From Streptosporangium minutum (GTDB lineage: Bacteria > Actinomycetota > Actinomycetes > Streptosporangiales > Streptosporangiaceae): DNA of 45,977 nt. Position 1 is the stretch's first letter; every line of letters begins with the position of its first letter. The position numbers were made by a program, and so were the translations under genes. This document shows positions 1 to 5,955 of this stretch, piece by piece. Location: contig NZ_NGFP01000027.1 in assembly GCF_002149035.1 (NCBI RefSeq), forward strand, positions 6,608 to 52,584, in the 5' to 3' direction. A model generated the notes under the pieces. The model saw only the letters and a list, made by a program, of their open reading frames with translations. It made no database searches and was not told the DNA's origin.

Positions 1-1180
1 CGTCCAGCAGCACGAGCACCGCCCGGTCGGCGACCTTGGCCCGGTACATCGCCGCCCGCTCCTCGACGGAGGAGGGCAGGCCGGCGGAGTCCACGCCGAG
101 CGCCCGCAACAGCTCCGCGAGCGCGTCGGCCGGGTCGCGGGGCGACGCCGAGGCGTCACACAGCCGGACGAACAGCTGGCCGTCCGGATACCGCTGCCGC
201 ACCAGATGCGCGACATGGACCGCCAGCGCGCTCTTCCCGACGCCGGGCGGCCCCGACACCGTCACGATCACCGGCGCCGTCCCGGTGCCGTCCAGCGCGG
301 CGACCAGGTCACGGGTCTCGCCCTCGCGGCCGGCGAAGTCGGCGATGTCGGCCGGGAGCAGGCAGATCCCCGTCCAGGCGGGTTCCCGGACCGTCTCCCA
401 CGCGGGAGCCGGGACGGGGGCGTCGTCGAGGACCGCCGCCTGCAGGCCGCGTAGTTCCTGGCCGGGTTCCACGCCCAGCTCGGCGACGAGCGTCGAGCGG
501 GCCCGCCGGTACGCCTCCAGCGCCTCGGCGCGCCGGCCCGCCCGGTGCAGCGCCAGCATGAACCGGTGCCACAGGCGTTCGTTGAGCGGCGCGGCCTCCA
601 CCAGCGGTGTCAGCTCACCGACGAGCTCGTCGTGCAGGCCGAGCCGCAGGCGCACGTCGATCCAGCCGAGCCGGGCGTTCTCCCGGCGCTCCTCCAGCTC
701 GGCGACGCGCGCCTGCATCGTCGCGGCCAGCGGCACGTCCTCGGCCGGTCGGCCGCGCCACAGCGCCAGCGCCTCGGCGAACAGCCGGTTCGCCGTGGCG
801 GCGTCGCCGCCCGCCGCCTCCAGCCGGGCTCGCCGTACGGCCTCGTCGAAGGCGAGCAGATCCAGCCGGTCGGGGCCGAGGCGCAGGCGGTAGCCGTACG
901 GCACGGTCTCGACCTCGATCGCGGCACGGCGCAGCGCGGTCAGGTACGTCTGAAGGTTCGGCAGGGCGGACCGGGGCGGGTCGTCCCACACCGAGGCGAT
1001 CAGCCGGTCCCTGGACAGCACGGTGTCCGGATGGAGCAGGAAGACGCCGAGCACCGCGCGCACCTTGGCGGCCAGCCGGAGCGGCTGCCCGGCATCGGTG
1101 ACCCGGACCGGTCCGAGGACCGCGAAGTCCACTTCGTCTCCCGGAACGATCAGCGGTTCTGCAGCTTCTATGGCGACCAT
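1..1180 (-). CDS. SARP/AfsR-type transcriptional activator, C-terminus beyond window
   Basis: About 393 codons are visible; the rest lies beyond base 1. An OmpR-like winged helix (about residues 15-100, beginning DFAVLGPVRV) is followed by a bacterial transcriptional activation (BTAD) domain (about 105-260). An NB-ARC ATPase then starts with the P-loop GPPGVGKS (310-317, Lys316), and a Walker-B-like AVLVLLD sits at the cut edge. This is the AfsR/SARP architecture, which typically activates secondary-metabolite clusters. I chose the ATG at 1180 because it gives a few residues before the first beta strand; no good Shine-Dalgarno precedes it, so an internal GTG is possible. It diverges from the micro-ORF/E1/M50 genes with about 60 bp between start codons, so it is the natural candidate regulator of that locus (inference). 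Confidence 0.88.
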   Translation of the reverse strand, partial: MVAIEAAEPLIVPGDEVDFAVLGPVRVTDAGQPLRLAAKVRAVLGVFLLHPDTVLSRDRLIASVWDDPPRSALPNLQTYLTALRRAAIEVETVPYGYRLRLGPDRLDLLAFDEAVRRARLEAAGGDAATANRLFAEALALWRGRPAEDVPLAATMQARVAELEERRENARLGWIDVRLRLGLHDELVGELTPLVEAAPLNERLWHRFMLALHRAGRRAEALEAYRRARSTLVAELGVEPGQELRGLQAAVLDDAPVPAPAWETVREPAWTGICLLPADIADFAGREGETRDLVAALDGTGTAPVIVTVSGPPGVGKSALAVHVAHLVRQRYPDGQLFVRLCDASASPRDPADALAELLRALGVDSAGLPSSVEERAAMYRAKVADRAVLVLLD

Positions 1181-1227
1181 ATGCGGTTTCTGTGGGCGAA
1201 GGGAGGAGCTTGATCAAAGACATCCGG

Positions 1228-1235
1228 AAGGAGGT
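1228..1235 (+). promoter_or_regulatory. Perfect Shine-Dalgarno before the micro-ORF
   Basis: AAGGAGGT is an exact match to the anti-Shine-Dalgarno. It ends 7 bases before the ATG at 1243. It decides the start of the 18-codon ORF and argues that this tiny frame is translated. Confidence 0.7.
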
Positions 1236-1242
1236 GGATGAG

Positions 1243-1299
1243 ATGAAGATCGAGGTTCGCAAGGTGGAAGCCGTCAAGGCCACCCAGTTCATGACCTGA
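1243..1299 (+). CDS. Candidate RiPP precursor micropeptide (18 aa)
   Basis: The ORF encodes MKIEVRKVEAVKATQFMT and stops at TGA 1297-1299. It is preceded by a perfect Shine-Dalgarno at 7-base spacing. A longer form from TTG 1210 (29 aa, in frame, adding IKDIRKEVDE before the Met) is possible, but GGGAGG lies only 3 bases upstream of that TTG. I do not recognise the peptide. It is charged and amphipathic at the N-terminus (leader-like), with a short Thr/Gln/Phe/Met/Thr tail that could be a core. It is the first gene of a co-directional set with an E1-like enzyme and an M50 protease, both carrying PqqD-like domains that usually bind RiPP leaders. A strong hairpin follows directly. The precursor role is an inference from context. 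It could instead be a regulatory upstream ORF controlling translation or attenuation of the genes behind it. Confidence 0.55.
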   Translation: MKIEVRKVEAVKATQFMT

Positions 1300-1313
1300 G
1301 GCACCGCCTCTCA

Positions 1314-1350
1314 GCCGGTCGGGAGGTGGCACGGCCGCCTCCCGGCCGGC
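1314..1350 (+). terminator. Hairpin between micro-ORF and E1 gene (attenuator or partial terminator)
   Basis: The left arm GCCGGTCGGGAGG (1314-1326) pairs with CCTCCCGGCCGGC (1338-1350). This gives 13 pairs with a single G-U, around an 11-base loop. No T-tract follows. It lies 14 bases after the micro-ORF stop and 29 bases before the E1 start. That position suits partial termination giving more precursor than enzyme mRNA, as seen in many RiPP operons, or 3'-end protection (inference). Confidence 0.6.
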
Positions 1351-1379
1351 TCCGTCCCGACGAGCGATGCGGATGAGCG

Positions 1380-2468
1380 ATGCTGGTGATGTTGAAAGAG
1401 TGCGCCTGGGAGTCTCTCGGTGACGAACTGGTGGTGGTCCACGACCCGCGCGAGGCGTACACGCTGGCTGATCCGGACGGCCGGATCGCGGCTCTCCTCG
1501 ACGAGCTGGCCCGCGGGCCGGCCACGGCGGAGGAGCTGAGCGAGGCGCTGACCGCGCGAGGCGTGGCCGTCACGGGAGACAACGTCCGCGACGGTCTCAC
1601 CGGGCTCGACTCCCTCGGCCTGGTCGAGAACGCCGACGAACGCCTGCTGGGCGACCCGGACGCCGACGAGCGGCATTTCTCCAACCTGACGTTCTTCGGG
1701 GTCTTCGCCCGGCTCGGCAGGTCGCGAGCGGAGTTCGTCCGGCGGCTGCGCGACTCCCACGTCCTCGTGCTCGGTGCGGGCGGCGGCGGCTCGTCCCTCG
1801 TGCAGTGCCTGGCCGGGCTCGGCGTCGGCGCGCTGACGCTGGTGGACCGCGACGACATCGCTCCGCGCAACTTCGCCCGCCAGTTCCTCTACCGGCACGC
1901 CGACATCGGCCGGTCGAAGGCGGAACGCGCCGCCGAATGGGTGCGCGAGTACGACCCGGGCATCGAGGTCCGCGCCGTGGACCGGTGGATCTCCGGCCCG
2001 GACGACCTCAAGGACCTGACCGGGGACGTCCATGTGATCGCCGGCGGCCTCGACGGCGCGCTGGACGCGAACCTGTGGGTCAACGAGGCGGCGCTGCGCG
2101 CGGGCGTCCCCTGGGTGGCCGGCGGGATGACCCGCACCCAGCTCATCTACTTCTCCGTCGACCCGGGCAAGAGCGCCTGCCTGCGCTGCGACGAGTCCGA
2201 CCTGCCCCGCCTGGACGAACGCACGACCGCGGCGGTCGCCCATCGGCTCACCCGCGGGCTGCGGCTCGCCAACGGCCTCACCGGGCCGATGGCGATGCAG
2301 GTCGGGTCGCTGGTCGCCTACGAGGTCATGCGTTACCTGACCGGCGTCGAGCCGCCGCGCGCGGCCGGGTTCCGGGTGGTCGTCGACCTGCTCAACGGGC
2401 TCGTCCCAGTGTGGCGACCGTTTCCCCGTGATCCCGCCTGCCCGGCGTGCGCACTGGCCCGGCGGTGA
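1380..2468 (+). CDS. ThiF/E1-like adenylyltransferase with N-terminal PqqD-like domain
   Basis: The protein has 362 aa. Residues about 5-85 look like a PqqD/RRE winged helix (VVVHDPREAYTLAD, then helices ending LDSLGLVE). This fold binds leader peptides in RiPP pathways. Residues about 115-350 form an E1/ThiF/MccB-like adenylating domain with the nucleotide loop GAGGGGS (132-138), VDRDDI, and a Lys in GRSKAE. Two cysteine pairs, C267/C270 and C354/C357, match the structural zinc site of MoeB/ThiF/MccB proteins. Relatives such as MccB (microcin C7) and PaaA (pantocin A) adenylate a carboxylate of a short ribosomal peptide. No YcaO partner lies nearby, so this is not a typical azole (TOMM) cluster. 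The ATG at 1380 lacks a clear Shine-Dalgarno; the in-frame ATG at 1389 is an alternative. The stop is 4 bases before the M50 gene. Fold confidence is high; the reaction is unknown. Confidence 0.88.
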   Translation: MLVMLKECAWESLGDELVVVHDPREAYTLADPDGRIAALLDELARGPATAEELSEALTARGVAVTGDNVRDGLTGLDSLGLVENADERLLGDPDADERHFSNLTFFGVFARLGRSRAEFVRRLRDSHVLVLGAGGGGSSLVQCLAGLGVGALTLVDRDDIAPRNFARQFLYRHADIGRSKAERAAEWVREYDPGIEVRAVDRWISGPDDLKDLTGDVHVIAGGLDGALDANLWVNEAALRAGVPWVAGGMTRTQLIYFSVDPGKSACLRCDESDLPRLDERTTAAVAHRLTRGLRLANGLTGPMAMQVGSLVAYEVMRYLTGVEPPRAAGFRVVVDLLNGLVPVWRPFPRDPACPACALARR

Positions 2469-2472
2469 GCCG

Positions 2473-3666
2473 ATGAGCGGCAGGGTCCCGCTGCGCCCGC
2501 TCAGCGTGGTCGAGGAGGACGATGAGGTACTGGTCGGCGATCCCGCCACCGGCACCTTCGTGACCATGCCGGCCGTGGGCGGAGTGGTGATCTCGGCGCT
2601 GCTGCGCGGCGCGACCGAGGAGGAGGCCGCAGCCGAGGCCGAGGCGTTCGCCGGTGAGCCCGTGGACATGCCGTCGTTCGTGGCGACCCTCGCCGAGCTG
2701 GGATTCGTCGACGACCGGCCCGACGTGGAACGCCGGGCCGTACGCACCGCGCCCATCCAGATGCGGCGCTGGATGGCGGGGGTCAGCCAGCGCGCGGCCC
2801 GCCCCTTCTTCGGACCGGTGGCCTGGACCTGCTACACCGTCCTGGCGCTGTTCTGCCTGGCCGTCTTCGCCGCCTCGCCGTCCCTGTTCCCGAGCCCGGC
2901 CCGGGACGCGTTCCTGCTCGACGACGTCGGGCTGAGCGCGCTGCTGCTCGTGCCGTTCGTCCTGGTCTCCACGGCTCTGCACGAGGGCGGCCACTGGCTC
3001 GCCGCCCGGGCGATCGGCGTCGAGTCCCGGTTCGGGATGGACCGGCGGATGATGCTGCCCGTCCTGGAGACCGACCTCTCCCAGATCTGGACGGTGCCGC
3101 GCCGCCGCCGCTACGGGCCGCTGCTCGGCGGGACGGCGGTGGACGTGGTCCTGCTCAGCCTGCTGCTGGGCGCCCGCCTGCTGATCCGGCAGGGGACGTG
3201 GTCACCGGACCCCCTGGTGGACGCGACGCTCTCGACATGGGTGTTCGTGAAGCTGGCGGGCCTGCTGTGGCAGTGCATGGTCTTCCTGCGCACCGACCTG
3301 TACGGGGTGCTGGTCAACGCGCTCGGCTGCCGCGACCTGTGGCGGGTCAAGACGCTGATGCTGCGGCGCGCGTTCGGCAGGCTCACCCCGGCGCAGGCGG
3401 CGGAGCTGGACTCGGCCGCGCCCGCCGACGTGCGGGCCGGGCGGTGGTTCCGGTGGCTGTGGCTGGCCGGGTTCGCCGGGGTGCTGGCCTGGTCCGTCTT
3501 CTTCGTGGCCCCCGTCGTGGTGACCGTGCTGGTGTGGGCGGCCGGGGGGCTTCTGCTCGGGCCGCTCAGCTCGCGGTTCTGGTACGCGTTGCTGTGCGCC
3601 GTCCTGCTGCTCGGCCCGTACCTCCTGGCCGCCTCCCTGGCCGTCCGGGAGTACACCCGGCGGTAG
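2473..3666 (+). CDS. Membrane M50-type zinc metalloprotease with N-terminal PqqD-like domain
   Basis: The protein has 397 aa. Residues about 5-85 resemble another PqqD-like domain (VLVGDPATGTFVTMPAVGG, then LAELGFVDD). Next are about six hydrophobic segments. HEGGH at 170-174 is the HExxH zinc motif of M50 intramembrane proteases, followed downstream by FLRTDLYGVLVN, which places an Asp as in YydH-like peptide metalloproteases. YydH-type enzymes accompany RiPP precursors, where a role in peptide processing or export is assumed. Here leader cleavage is the obvious proposal (inference). The start is the ATG 4 bases after the E1 stop, and the two genes are surely co-transcribed. A longer in-frame start at 2428 would overlap the E1 gene by 41 bases and lacks a Shine-Dalgarno. 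Confidence 0.87.
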   Translation: MSGRVPLRPLSVVEEDDEVLVGDPATGTFVTMPAVGGVVISALLRGATEEEAAAEAEAFAGEPVDMPSFVATLAELGFVDDRPDVERRAVRTAPIQMRRWMAGVSQRAARPFFGPVAWTCYTVLALFCLAVFAASPSLFPSPARDAFLLDDVGLSALLLVPFVLVSTALHEGGHWLAARAIGVESRFGMDRRMMLPVLETDLSQIWTVPRRRRYGPLLGGTAVDVVLLSLLLGARLLIRQGTWSPDPLVDATLSTWVFVKLAGLLWQCMVFLRTDLYGVLVNALGCRDLWRVKTLMLRRAFGRLTPAQAAELDSAAPADVRAGRWFRWLWLAGFAGVLAWSVFFVAPVVVTVLVWAAGGLLLGPLSSRFWYALLCAVLLLGPYLLAASLAVREYTRR

Positions 3667-3750
3667 ACGGGGGCATCGTACGGCAACCGGCTCGCGAGCC
3701 TCGCCGGTCGGTACGGCGGGCGGCCCAACAAACCTGATCAAGGAGTTGAC

Positions 3751-4902
3751 GTGTGGGAAATCAACGGTCGTCGGGGAAAGGCCCTGCGTGGCGCCGGCCT
3801 CGCGCTGCTTCTGGCGGCGGTTCTCGCGGGCTGCGGGGACGGCGACGGACGGTCCGCGGGCCCGGCCGGATCCGCGTCCCGTGCGCCGGAAGGATCGGCG
3901 TCCCCTACGACGGAAGGGTCGGCGTCCGCCACGCCGACGGTTTCCAGGACCGGGCTGCTCTACCGGGACAGGGAGATCTCGCTGAGTGACATCCAGGCGA
4001 TCAAGAACGGATGCCCGTCGGACATCTACGTGGAGTTCGCGGACAGCGGGCCGCGCGTCCTCGGGTCCGACGAGTCGAACCCGCGCCTGAATGACTACGG
4101 GGATCAGACGGAGGAGGGCAGGCCGCCCATCCTGGCGTGGTCGCCCCCATGCTCCTCGGCGAACGGGCGGTTCGACTTCGACGACGTGGCCGTCGCCAAG
4201 GCGGCCGCGGACGCCGGGGACCTCGATGAGGCGGGCTGCCGGGACGCCGCACGGGCGGCGGTCGGCAGCGGTACGGACATCGACCGCTACGGCACCCAGG
4301 CCCTGGCGGTGGGAGACCGGTTCTGTGAGGACTTCGCCGCCGAGGGCCGCGTGGTCCTCCTGCGTGTGGTGAAGGTGAGCGGCTCCCCGGTCGCGGAGCT
4401 CACGTTGTCGGCGACCCTGTGGGCCGGGCCGGCCAAGGCCGAGGGCCCGCCGGCGCAGCCCGGTGACAAGGTCTACGAGAACCAGCCCTTCACGGTGGCC
4501 GACGACGTGGCCAAGACACAGGACTGCGGCATCGGCGGTGTCGGGATCGGTTCGGACATGCCGCGCGTCAGGTATCGGCACACACTGTCCGGTGGCGGAG
4601 GGGACGTCGAGTACTTCCCGAGCTGCCTGTCCGGAAGCCCGAAAGTGCGGTTCGGCGGATACGTGGCCCGGGTGGAGGGCGGCGCCGACCCGGACATCAC
4701 CGCCTGCCAGGACGCCGCGGCGCGCGGCGAGCGCGACGACCTCGACGTGCCGGTGTCCGAACTGCGGACCGGGGACCGGTTCTGCATGTTCGACAGCTTC
4801 GAGAAGTACGTCGCCCTGTTGAAGGTGACCGCCGTGACCGCCGAGGCCCCCGTGTCCGCGACCTTCTCGGTCACCCGCTGGGAAGCTCCCGAACCGTCCT
4901 AG
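3751..4902 (+). CDS. Lipoprotein with internal duplication, unknown function
   Basis: The protein has 383 aa. GTG start with AAGGAG 6 bases upstream. A basic N-terminus and hydrophobic stretch end in the lipobox LAGC (Cys28), so it should be anchored outside the membrane. A Ser/Ala/Pro/Thr-rich linker (about 32-66) with tandem EGSAS-like units follows. The rest is two copies of one module. Each starts with a segment ending in Cys (after IQAIKNG and VAKTQD), and each has a later block C-x-DAA...GDRFC...VLLRVVKVSG / VALLKVTAVT (from Cys163 and Cys319). The paired cysteines suggest extracellular disulfides. I do not recognise a named family. It lies 84 bases behind the protease gene on the same strand. 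Roles as an immunity, receptor or delivery lipoprotein for the peptide are speculative. Confidence 0.8.
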   Translation: MWEINGRRGKALRGAGLALLLAAVLAGCGDGDGRSAGPAGSASRAPEGSASPTTEGSASATPTVSRTGLLYRDREISLSDIQAIKNGCPSDIYVEFADSGPRVLGSDESNPRLNDYGDQTEEGRPPILAWSPPCSSANGRFDFDDVAVAKAAADAGDLDEAGCRDAARAAVGSGTDIDRYGTQALAVGDRFCEDFAAEGRVVLLRVVKVSGSPVAELTLSATLWAGPAKAEGPPAQPGDKVYENQPFTVADDVAKTQDCGIGGVGIGSDMPRVRYRHTLSGGGGDVEYFPSCLSGSPKVRFGGYVARVEGGADPDITACQDAAARGERDDLDVPVSELRTGDRFCMFDSFEKYVALLKVTAVTAEAPVSATFSVTRWEAPEPS

Positions 4903-4956: not shown

Positions 4957-5955
4957 CTAGAGCCATCGTTCCCGGGCGGCGTGCCAGGCGAGCTGCATCC
5001 TGGTCTGCGCGCCGGCGAGCTCCATGATGTGCGACAGGCGCCGCTGCACGGTCCGCTGGCTGAGCCCGAGCTGGCTGGCGATCGACTTGTCCGGCACCCC
5101 GGCGACCAGCAGCGACAGCAGGTACAGGTCGTCGGAGTTCAGCGGGCAGGGATGGGTTCCCTCGGTGAGGGCGCCGTCCTCGGCGATCCGCAGCGGCGTC
5201 GCCCGGTCCCAGTAGCTGTCGAACAGCGCGATCAGCACCTCCAGCAGCTCGCCGCCCCGGATCAGCGCGGCCGTCGGCTCCGCCGTCCCGGCATGCCGTA
5301 CCAGCGGCATCAGGCCGACCTCCCGGTCCACGACCATCAGGCGGACCGGCAGCCGGGGCAGGGCTCGGGCGCTCTCCCCCAGCTTGACGCCGTAGGCCAC
5401 GTTGGCCTGCATCCCCGGCTCCTCCAGCAGGTCGCGCTCGTAGATCACCCGGTAGACCACCCCGCGGCGCAGCGCGTCGAGCTCCTCGTCGTTCTCGGTC
5501 GCGTGCATCACGATCGCGCGTCCCCGGCAGAAGCAGAGAACCTCCTCGCGGGCGTTCTCCTGCAGGTGTTCGAGCTGCTCGCGCATGGCGATCCGGTTGG
5601 GGAGCACCTCGACGAGCCGGTCGGCGTCGCGGCGGCGGGCGTTGCCCCGGTGTTCCTCGGCCAGTTGCTCCACCTCGCGCCGCGCCCAGTCGAGCGACTG
5701 CTGCTGGCGCAGCAGCCGGGCGCCCAGCACGATGTCGGGGGCCACCGCGGTGAAACGCCGCTCCGCCGGGGCGGCCGGCTCCGGGACGGCCGGCCGGACC
5801 AGGCCCCTGGCCTCCATCGACCGCAGCGCCGCCTCGGCCGTCGCGATGTCGAGCCCGAGCTCGCCGGCCAGGTCGGTGACGTCGGCCTCGGCTGCCGTGA
5901 CCAGGAACCGGTAGACGCGTTCCTCCAGCGGATCCAGCCCGACCGTTTCCAACAT
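4957..5955 (-). CDS. TrmB-like/LuxR-type HTH regulator
   Basis: The protein has 332 aa. The N-terminus (LDPLEERVYRFLVTAAEADV...) is a TrmB/MarR-like winged helix at about residues 5-70. A middle sensor-like region of about 180 residues follows. A C-terminal LuxR helix-turn-helix occupies about 275-325 (LSLLVAGVPDKSIASQLGL, then SQRTVQRRLSHI). This architecture is common in actinomycetes. It is convergent with the lipoprotein gene (54 bases apart) and could belong to the peptide locus or stand alone. The ATG at 5955 lacks a visible Shine-Dalgarno. Target genes cannot be read from the sequence. Confidence 0.8.
   Translation of the reverse strand: MLETVGLDPLEERVYRFLVTAAEADVTDLAGELGLDIATAEAALRSMEARGLVRPAVPEPAAPAERRFTAVAPDIVLGARLLRQQQSLDWARREVEQLAEEHRGNARRRDADRLVEVLPNRIAMREQLEHLQENAREEVLCFCRGRAIVMHATENDEELDALRRGVVYRVIYERDLLEEPGMQANVAYGVKLGESARALPRLPVRLMVVDREVGLMPLVRHAGTAEPTAALIRGGELLEVLIALFDSYWDRATPLRIAEDGALTEGTHPCPLNSDDLYLLSLLVAGVPDKSIASQLGLSQRTVQRRLSHIMELAGAQTRMQLAWHAARERWL

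Follow-up and report, generated by a model that had tools for sequence, protein, structure and literature searches.

A minimal RiPP-like locus in Streptosporangium minutum with an 18-residue precursor, an E1-like enzyme and an M50 protease, both predicted to carry recognition domains

We analyzed a 45,977-nucleotide stretch of contig NZ_NGFP01000027.1 of Streptosporangium minutum, referred to here as the window, from a genome of 9.58 Mb in 548 contigs. Near its left end lies a compact locus that looks like a minimal system for a ribosomally synthesized and post-translationally modified peptide (RiPP). A micro-open reading frame (micro-ORF) of 18 codons is followed on the same strand by the gene for an adenylating enzyme of the E1/ThiF type and, after a gap of 4 bases, by the gene for a membrane metalloprotease of the M50 (site-2) kind, and both enzymes are predicted to begin with a RiPP recognition element (RRE) of the PqqD-like fold. 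The features are collected in Table 1.

Table 1. Features of the locus, in window coordinates (aa, amino acids; nt, nucleotides)
Feature	Position	Strand	Basis or remark
Divergent SARP-type regulator, 926 aa	1..1180, runs past the left edge of the window	-	Pfam
Shine-Dalgarno sequence AAGGAGGT	1228..1235	+	7 bases upstream of the micro-ORF ATG
Precursor micro-ORF, 18 aa, MKIEVRKVEAVKATQFMT	1243..1299	+	stop codon 1297-1299
Precursor leader MKIEVRKVEAVKAT, to residue 14	1243-1284	+	predicted leader/core border
Presumed core QFMT	1285-1296	+	predicted border with leader
E1/ThiF-like adenylating enzyme, 362 aa	1380..2468	+	Pfam, AlphaFold model, alignment
N-terminal RRE of the E1, about residues 1-84	nt 1380-1631	+	border from secondary structure of the model
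Membrane M50 (site-2) metalloprotease, 397 aa	2473..3666	+	motif, alignment, AlphaFold model
N-terminal RRE of the M50, residues 3-81	nt 2479-2715	+	structure match of the model
HEGGH, M50 residues 170-174	nt 2980-2994	+	motif
Internally duplicated lipoprotein	3751..4902	+	not part of the system

A sequence-only reading of the window had proposed the 18-codon ORF with its Shine-Dalgarno sequence, and its coordinates, start and stop hold on the sequence. The ORF keeps its length, its frame and the upstream AAGGAGGT in the window and in each of 12 close relatives, 13 sequences altogether. Six of the 11 variable columns in their alignment are third codon positions, and the five amino acid replacements are all mild (M/V at the start, V/I, A/S, F/Y and M/V). 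Judged by its sequence, the micro-ORF bears a coding signature. Read from this precursor, the core QFMT has no acidic residue and no Asn, and its C-terminal residue is Thr. Seven precursor peptides submitted to Pfam and NCBIfam gave no significant match in either, so that annotation with those libraries would miss them.

The adenylating enzyme matches the Pfam ThiF family over residues 117-355 (E 2.1e-48). Its AlphaFold model (mean pLDDT 91.5) has MccB as the closest solved structure over its full length (residues 1-358; Z 33, root mean square deviation (rmsd) 3.5 over 339 residues, 19% identity) and also aligns with PaaA over residues 1-349 (Z 26.4, 287 residues aligned). These matches and the modelled RRE/PqqD fold bear out the N-terminal PqqD-like domain that had been assigned to the E1 from sequence. 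An alignment of 18 E1s shows no variation in the glycine-rich loop, R167, K180 or D225, which would correspond to the residues of the same numbers tested in EnfB. The Cys pairs C267/C270 and C354/C357 are likewise invariant, with no further invariant Cys. Among the named genomes scanned, Streptosporangium canum has the closest E1 (96%).

Residues H170, E171, H174 and D275 of the protease are invariant in 28 M50 rows, D275 being the likely metal ligand. By sequence, the Pfam Peptidase_M50 match is below threshold (13.5 bits against a cut-off of 27.2). In the AlphaFold model (mean pLDDT 89.6, with residues 91-98 below 50), residues 150-354 align with proteases of the RseP/SpoIVFB type (Z 8.3-9.4, rmsd 3.3-5.1). 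These Z values are middling for a helical protein, and the assignment to M50 is based on the predicted fold together with the HExxH motif and the invariant Asp. The protein thus combines HExxH and a distal Asp with membrane helices and a modelled site-2 protease fold. Its N-terminal residues 3-81 match the lasso-peptide RRE TbiB1 (Z 9.5, rmsd 2.3, 79 residues), and the same domain matches the lasso RRE TfuB1 (Z 9.2). Unrelated winged-helix-like rows begin at Z about 7.3, some 2 below TbiB1. A membrane HEGGH protease with a PqqD-like domain of its own, as first read from the sequence, is therefore what motif and model both indicate.

When named genomes were scanned with the E1 alignment alone, 57 loci were recovered, mostly in Nonomuraea, then in Streptosporangium, Actinomadura and others, with one in Streptomyces. 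A micro-ORF fitting the leader profile is present in 54 of the 57, an adjoining M50 in 54 and both in 53. Homologous E1/M50 pairs, which the sequence-only reading had suggested searching for in actinomycete genomes, are thus accompanied by a conserved micro-ORF. The exceptions are L112, without a micro-ORF; L118, a partial E1 match without M50; and L127 and L129, with neither. At L112 (6001-8240) the E1 appears shortened at its N-terminus next to an adjoining M50, and this locus may be decaying. The leader profile, of 12 columns, gave 55 hits in 54 loci over 710,912 bases in six frames, all on the enzyme strand. Fifty column-permuted profiles averaged 1.38 hits per scan (median 0, maximum 13), and the reversed profile gave one; the profile was trained on peptides of the first genome set, some species of which overlap with the 57 loci.

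The system is common in the family of the window's genome, where a relative of the M50 was found in 60 of 200 genomes (tblastn, E 1e-10 or better) and an E1 profile match in 73 (E 1e-55 or better), most of the latter starting within the RRE. Among 396 phylum-wide genomes, only the window's own genome and G370 gave an E1 match that begins at the RRE (E 1e-40 or better), while six, the own genome counted, gave an M50 match (E 1e-15 or better). Six loci from the other genomes of this phylum sample were read, of which L139, L140 and L141 have a convincing micro-ORF and L138, L142 and L143 do not. A further 40 loci were added, the first 20 picked for a nearby M50 and most of the others for its absence, so that the presence of M50 in 22 of them is not a frequency. 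Gene families were counted in 96 loci with gene calls from our own simple finder, which also served for the phylum-sample and further loci and some of whose ORFs are wrong. The M50 (81 loci), the E1 (68) and the SARP (65) are the only families in more than 12 loci, and the system therefore looks minimal. The next is a TPR protein of the type-D loci described below (12), and all others reach at most 8, including a transporter-like sequence in 8. No radical SAM or pearlin-type, membrane-substrate or import family recurs in the 96 loci, and exporter and immunity-like families do not recur widely.

The peptides share a nearly fixed leader and differ in a tail of 4-14 residues, and the loci fall into several types. 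Type A, to which the window belongs, has the leader KIEVRKVEAVKAT, the micro-ORF before the E1 and tails such as QFMT, QFVT, QYMT, VKDG, AAPPV, GFAV and VNGPH, among others. In type B the micro-ORF lies between the E1 and the M50, the leader ends in RLT and the eight tails end in S or T; in type C it lies upstream of the E1, the leader ends in ETT and Gly is terminal in 11 of 12 tails. Type N combines an A-like leader with an M50 and no E1. Type D also lacks the E1 and has an M50, leaders such as KIRKAGPVRLT and tails such as AAACSIYKNAN, with a TPR-rich protein downstream in 12 of 14 loci (L053-L066). Type-D micro-peptides such as MKKIKIRKVGPIRLTAAACSIYKVPN precede an RRE-like M50 (L053-L066, among them L062 at G000:C13:52410-53609, and L139-L141), and the window's own genome also holds a type-D locus. 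In type E (L148-L184) the micro-ORF lies downstream of an RRE-E1 gene, the leader resembles IRRLDKIETT and the tails are rich in Ser and Asn (for example IRRLDKIETT-ADSSGNSN); several of these loci have no M50 in the stretch read. The minimal E1/M50 locus first proposed from the window thus stands as one arrangement, a pair with its micro-ORF, in a wider family that also has M50-only and E1-only relatives.

In a tree of the M50s from 56 loci, types B and C each occupy one side of a supported branch. The three type-N loci pair with E1-bearing type-A loci at two separate supported places (L048 with L047; L044 and L046 with L100), and two distant type-D rows are weakly placed. The five cores of the E1-less loci paired with type A end in I, I, S, N and F. 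Neither G090 nor G012 has an E1 of RRE length that could act in trans on E1-less loci, and the incomplete genome G019 gave no match. Several loci hold two or three micro-ORFs with different tails (L044, L056, L106 and L155), those of L044 (6826-7200) being GCIMI, ICIPS and IYMPI. The tail QNPAT, unlike the variable tails elsewhere, is identical across Streptomyces hainanensis, Nonomuraea and Streptosporangium (L041, L042, L089-L092). At L150, of type E, two DUF6879 proteins adjoin. An FxsB-like radical SAM/SPASM gene (L186, 2113-3918, minus strand; NCBIfam TIGR04269, 364.3 bits against a cut-off of 370) lies near an E1/M50 locus with the peptide MKIEIKKVEEVETTSNSNGC, and L187 has a similar peptide with no such gene evident in its gene list.

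For the comparison of cores, 63 peptides were picked by eye from the locus readings and 61 distinct ones tabulated; 21 later cores, mostly of type E, were picked in the same way. Neither Asp nor Glu occurs in 18 of the 37 distinct E1-associated cores of types A-C, QFMT included, so that in those presumed cores the C-terminal carboxylate would be the only one available to the E1. All 37 have T, V, A, G, S or H as the last residue and none has Asn, which is C-terminal in 8 of the 21 further cores. Before the type-E loci were included, the C-terminal residue was G, S, T, A or V in 36 of 37 E1-associated cores against 5 of 20 E1-less ones (p 1e-8). With the 21 later cores the counts become 44/58 against 5/20 (p 1e-4), and a test that allows Asn, Cys and His as well gives p 2e-4.

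The junction of leader and tail is marked by a threonine in 83 of 88 distinct entries, which were gathered with a profile that ignores this position; of the five exceptions, one is a register artefact. A first count of 60/61 was partly circular, as the parser had required the motif, and was repeated without that column. The threonine is present in M50-only and E1-only loci as well, and hence need not be the nucleophile; we rejected it as proof of the E1 nucleophile because it is kept in E1-less peptides. Its frequency with M50 (76/79) and without (7/9) does not differ significantly (p 0.08). A few E1-bearing loci have Ala or Pro in its place, namely L150 in its second peptide, L175 and L177, and also L182 and L184, which fall below the profile threshold.

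The genes, the modelled folds, a conserved leader with a variable tail and the recurrent neighbourhood together lead us to favour, as the probable reading, a minimal RiPP-like pathway in which the RRE-E1 adenylates the C-terminal carboxylate of the precursor and the RRE-bearing M50 releases a tiny product. The RRE of the E1 would bind the basic leader strand KIEVRKVEAVKAT of the 18-residue precursor, and the enzyme would spend ATP to adenylate the C-terminus. The activated end might then be closed on a nucleophile or capped, with the junction threonine, a backbone amide, a freed amine or an outside nucleophile as candidate attackers. The RRE of the M50 would grip the same leader at the membrane; that both RREs read one strand is suggested by a leader common to the peptides even where only one enzyme is present. 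A cut near the junction threonine would then release a product of about 4-6 residues, a step modelled on EpeP, TglG and TmoG. The release may be outwards, given that no transporter family recurs widely at the loci. The modified peptide and its biological role are, like binding, cleavage and export, predicted. In the simplest view the SARP-NB-ARC-TPR regulator would control the operon; more speculatively, it may sense the product. The product may also have an antibiotic role.

Several points weigh against this pathway. The system is predicted from genes, models and conservation, and the RRE of the M50, which rests on its fold, is marginal by sequence (E 0.051) and by Foldseek (E 0.012). The C-terminal test was chosen post hoc, its cores are not independent in phylogenetic terms, and allowing Asn makes it weaker (52/58 against 12/20, p 0.006). 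The wider family can do without either enzyme, as types N and D combine an M50 and a micro-ORF without an E1, and eight distinct peptides stand in loci with an E1 and no M50 in the stretch read. Three of the 57 loci (L112, L127 and L129) yielded no micro-ORF. A ribosome-site-type filter gave none at L138, the sole other phylum-sample locus with both enzymes, and a filter requiring a ribosome site gave none at 15 of the 40 further loci, of which the profile later filled four. The absence of a shared transporter could also mean that an exporter is encoded elsewhere or that the peptide acts inside the cell.

A peptide-signal circuit we regard as possible though less probable: the M50 would mature a linear or macrolactone pheromone, as Eep does with the SHP pheromones of streptococci, the TPR of the SARP would sense it, and the E1, where present, would close or cap its C-terminus. 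The sequence-only reading had placed a SARP divergent from the micro-ORF, and Pfam confirms it with winged-helix (Trans_reg_C), BTAD, NB-ARC and TPR domains (its start, the ATG at 1180, was chosen by us). It is a recurrent neighbour in relatives: with types A, B, C, D and N pooled, tblastn detected a divergent SARP at 43 of 72 loci (A 22/29, B 7/10, C 5/16, D 9/14, N 0/3), counts that omit diverged or differently placed SARPs. The peptide and its leader are retained in M50-only members, and the tails are tiny and differ between lineages. PMC13361665 describes Rgg-linked ThiF genes and the maturation of SHP by Eep. Together with the junction threonine, a four-residue tail would make a ring of five residues, the size that PMC12250964 gives for the Staphylococcus aureus AIPs. 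Peptide binding by the SARP that adjoins the micro-ORF is putative and drawn from analogy. A divergent SARP is absent from 11 of 16 type-C and all three type-N loci (L046 carries a SARP, but in same-strand orientation), and the loci share no recurrent import system. Moreover, SARPs often simply control the adjacent cluster.

A more specific form of this circuit, in which the E1 lactonises the C-terminus onto the junction threonine, the M50 frees and exports the ring and the SARP senses it, seems to us unlikely. It is allowed by the near-fixed junction threonine and by the 10 of 37 cores, such as AAPPV and GFAV, that hold no other S, T, C, K or Y side chain. The window's five-residue ring would then be T-Q-F-M-T and, if the reading is true, an enzyme-made analogue of AIP signals. 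Against it, the threonine is kept in M50-only types, where it may serve recognition or cleavage, and is Ala or Pro in the few E1-bearing loci named above.

A microcin C-like peptide-nucleotide antibiotic, with the E1 attaching AMP to the C-terminus, is distinctly improbable. MccB is the closest solved structure to the E1, and the Asn that ends 8 of the 21 further cores is the residue modified by MccB (PMC12250964). The window core, however, ends in Thr and has no Asn, none of the 37 type A-C cores has Asn at its end, and no exporter or self-protection family is widely recurrent, the largest family besides the type-D TPR protein reaching 8 of 96 loci. Nucleotide transfer of this kind at the window's locus was set aside as unlikely for want of the C-terminal Asn.

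Two last alternatives are very improbable. A regulatory ORF acting through its translation (attenuation) would explain why the micro-ORF precedes the E1 in types A and C, but in type B it lies between E1 and M50, in type E downstream of the E1, four loci have two or three copies, and it is conserved as a protein beside two proteins with predicted peptide-binding folds. Regulated intramembrane proteolysis of another substrate (a lipoprotein or regulator), with the micro-ORF as adaptor, fits the likeness of the M50 catalytic part to RseP and SpoIVFB, but no membrane-substrate gene is conserved, the lipoprotein included, and the M50 model has a peptide-recognition domain.

The lipoprotein downstream, with a lipobox by our reading of its sequence, is genuinely duplicated internally, as first noted (an alignment score of 105, where 300 shuffles reached at most 62). 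Its proposed membership of the system was rejected, as it has a match in one of 97 loci searched, the close relative L033. Beyond it (4957-5955, minus strand) lies a regulator that is TrmB-like at its N-terminus and has a helix-turn-helix of the LuxR type at its C-terminus. The genes that follow encode a thiolase, a MaoC protein and an acyl-CoA dehydrogenase, and a subtilase gene lies beyond the SARP. All of these look unrelated to the system, and no radical SAM enzyme came up when the genes from this subtilase through the acyl-CoA dehydrogenase were scanned with Pfam.

Among known systems, the nearest are those built on RRE-E1 enzymes acting on short peptides, which are already known (MccB, PaaA, GrcB, EnfB and IndF), and the window shares with them an RRE-E1 fusion, conserved ATP/Mg residues and a nearby precursor with a conserved leader and a variable core. 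Pantocin has the core Glu-Glu-Asn. Its precursor carries these residues as E16, E17 and N18, and MccB and PaaA are described as RRE-E1 enzymes, in the section of PMC12250964 consulted. With microcin C7 the window shares an RRE and E1 adenylation domain over the full length and a very short precursor, but the microcin precursor has 7 residues and ends in Asn, whereas the window's has 18 with a conserved leader and no such end, an M50 with its own predicted RRE is the partner and no widely shared exporter is found. With pantocin A it has in common an RRE-E1 whose substrate, here a presumed one, is a short leader-bearing precursor, and it differs in having no Glu-Glu-Asn, no acidic residue in the core and an M50 partner. 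EnfB (enterofaecin), GrcB and IndF are reported to adenylate a carboxylate and so to give macrocycles or amides (excerpts of PMC12250964 and PMC12150305), with a backbone amide as the attacker of the activated end for EnfB (PMC12250964, same excerpts). The EnfA leader motif (V/I)RKA, as described there, resembles the VRK of this system, a likeness of description and not of compared sequences. Those systems come from enterococci and streptococci and stand with transporters, an M16 protease or radical SAM enzymes, and the excerpts mention no M50.

Epipeptide pathways work with a radical SAM epimerase, and pearlin pathways with enzymes of their own. Neither family recurs here, and the window cluster has no radical SAM epimerase; the membrane M50s of those pathways, EpeP for epipeptides and TglG/TmoG for pearlins, mature ribosomal peptides (PMC10885120). 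Eep and SHP-Rgg resemble the system in a membrane metalloprotease, a very short peptide and a dedicated regulator, which here is a SARP, and their core circuit has no RRE or E1 in the sections of PMC13361665 available. In the open-access literature we found no account of an E1/M50 pair both bearing RREs, of this leader, or of M50-only and E1-only relatives, and members of this family may sit unnamed among the 27,400 RRE-ThiF candidates counted in PMC12150305. Against the literature searched, the pairing with an RRE-bearing M50, the common leader and the M50-only and E1-only relatives appear new, the product and its chemistry being proposed. Set beside the known systems, the family points to overlooked actinomycete ribosomal peptides with unusually short precursors, adds a protease that seemingly finds its substrate through its own RRE, and offers in its E1-only, M50-only and combined loci natural experiments that separate activation from cleavage.

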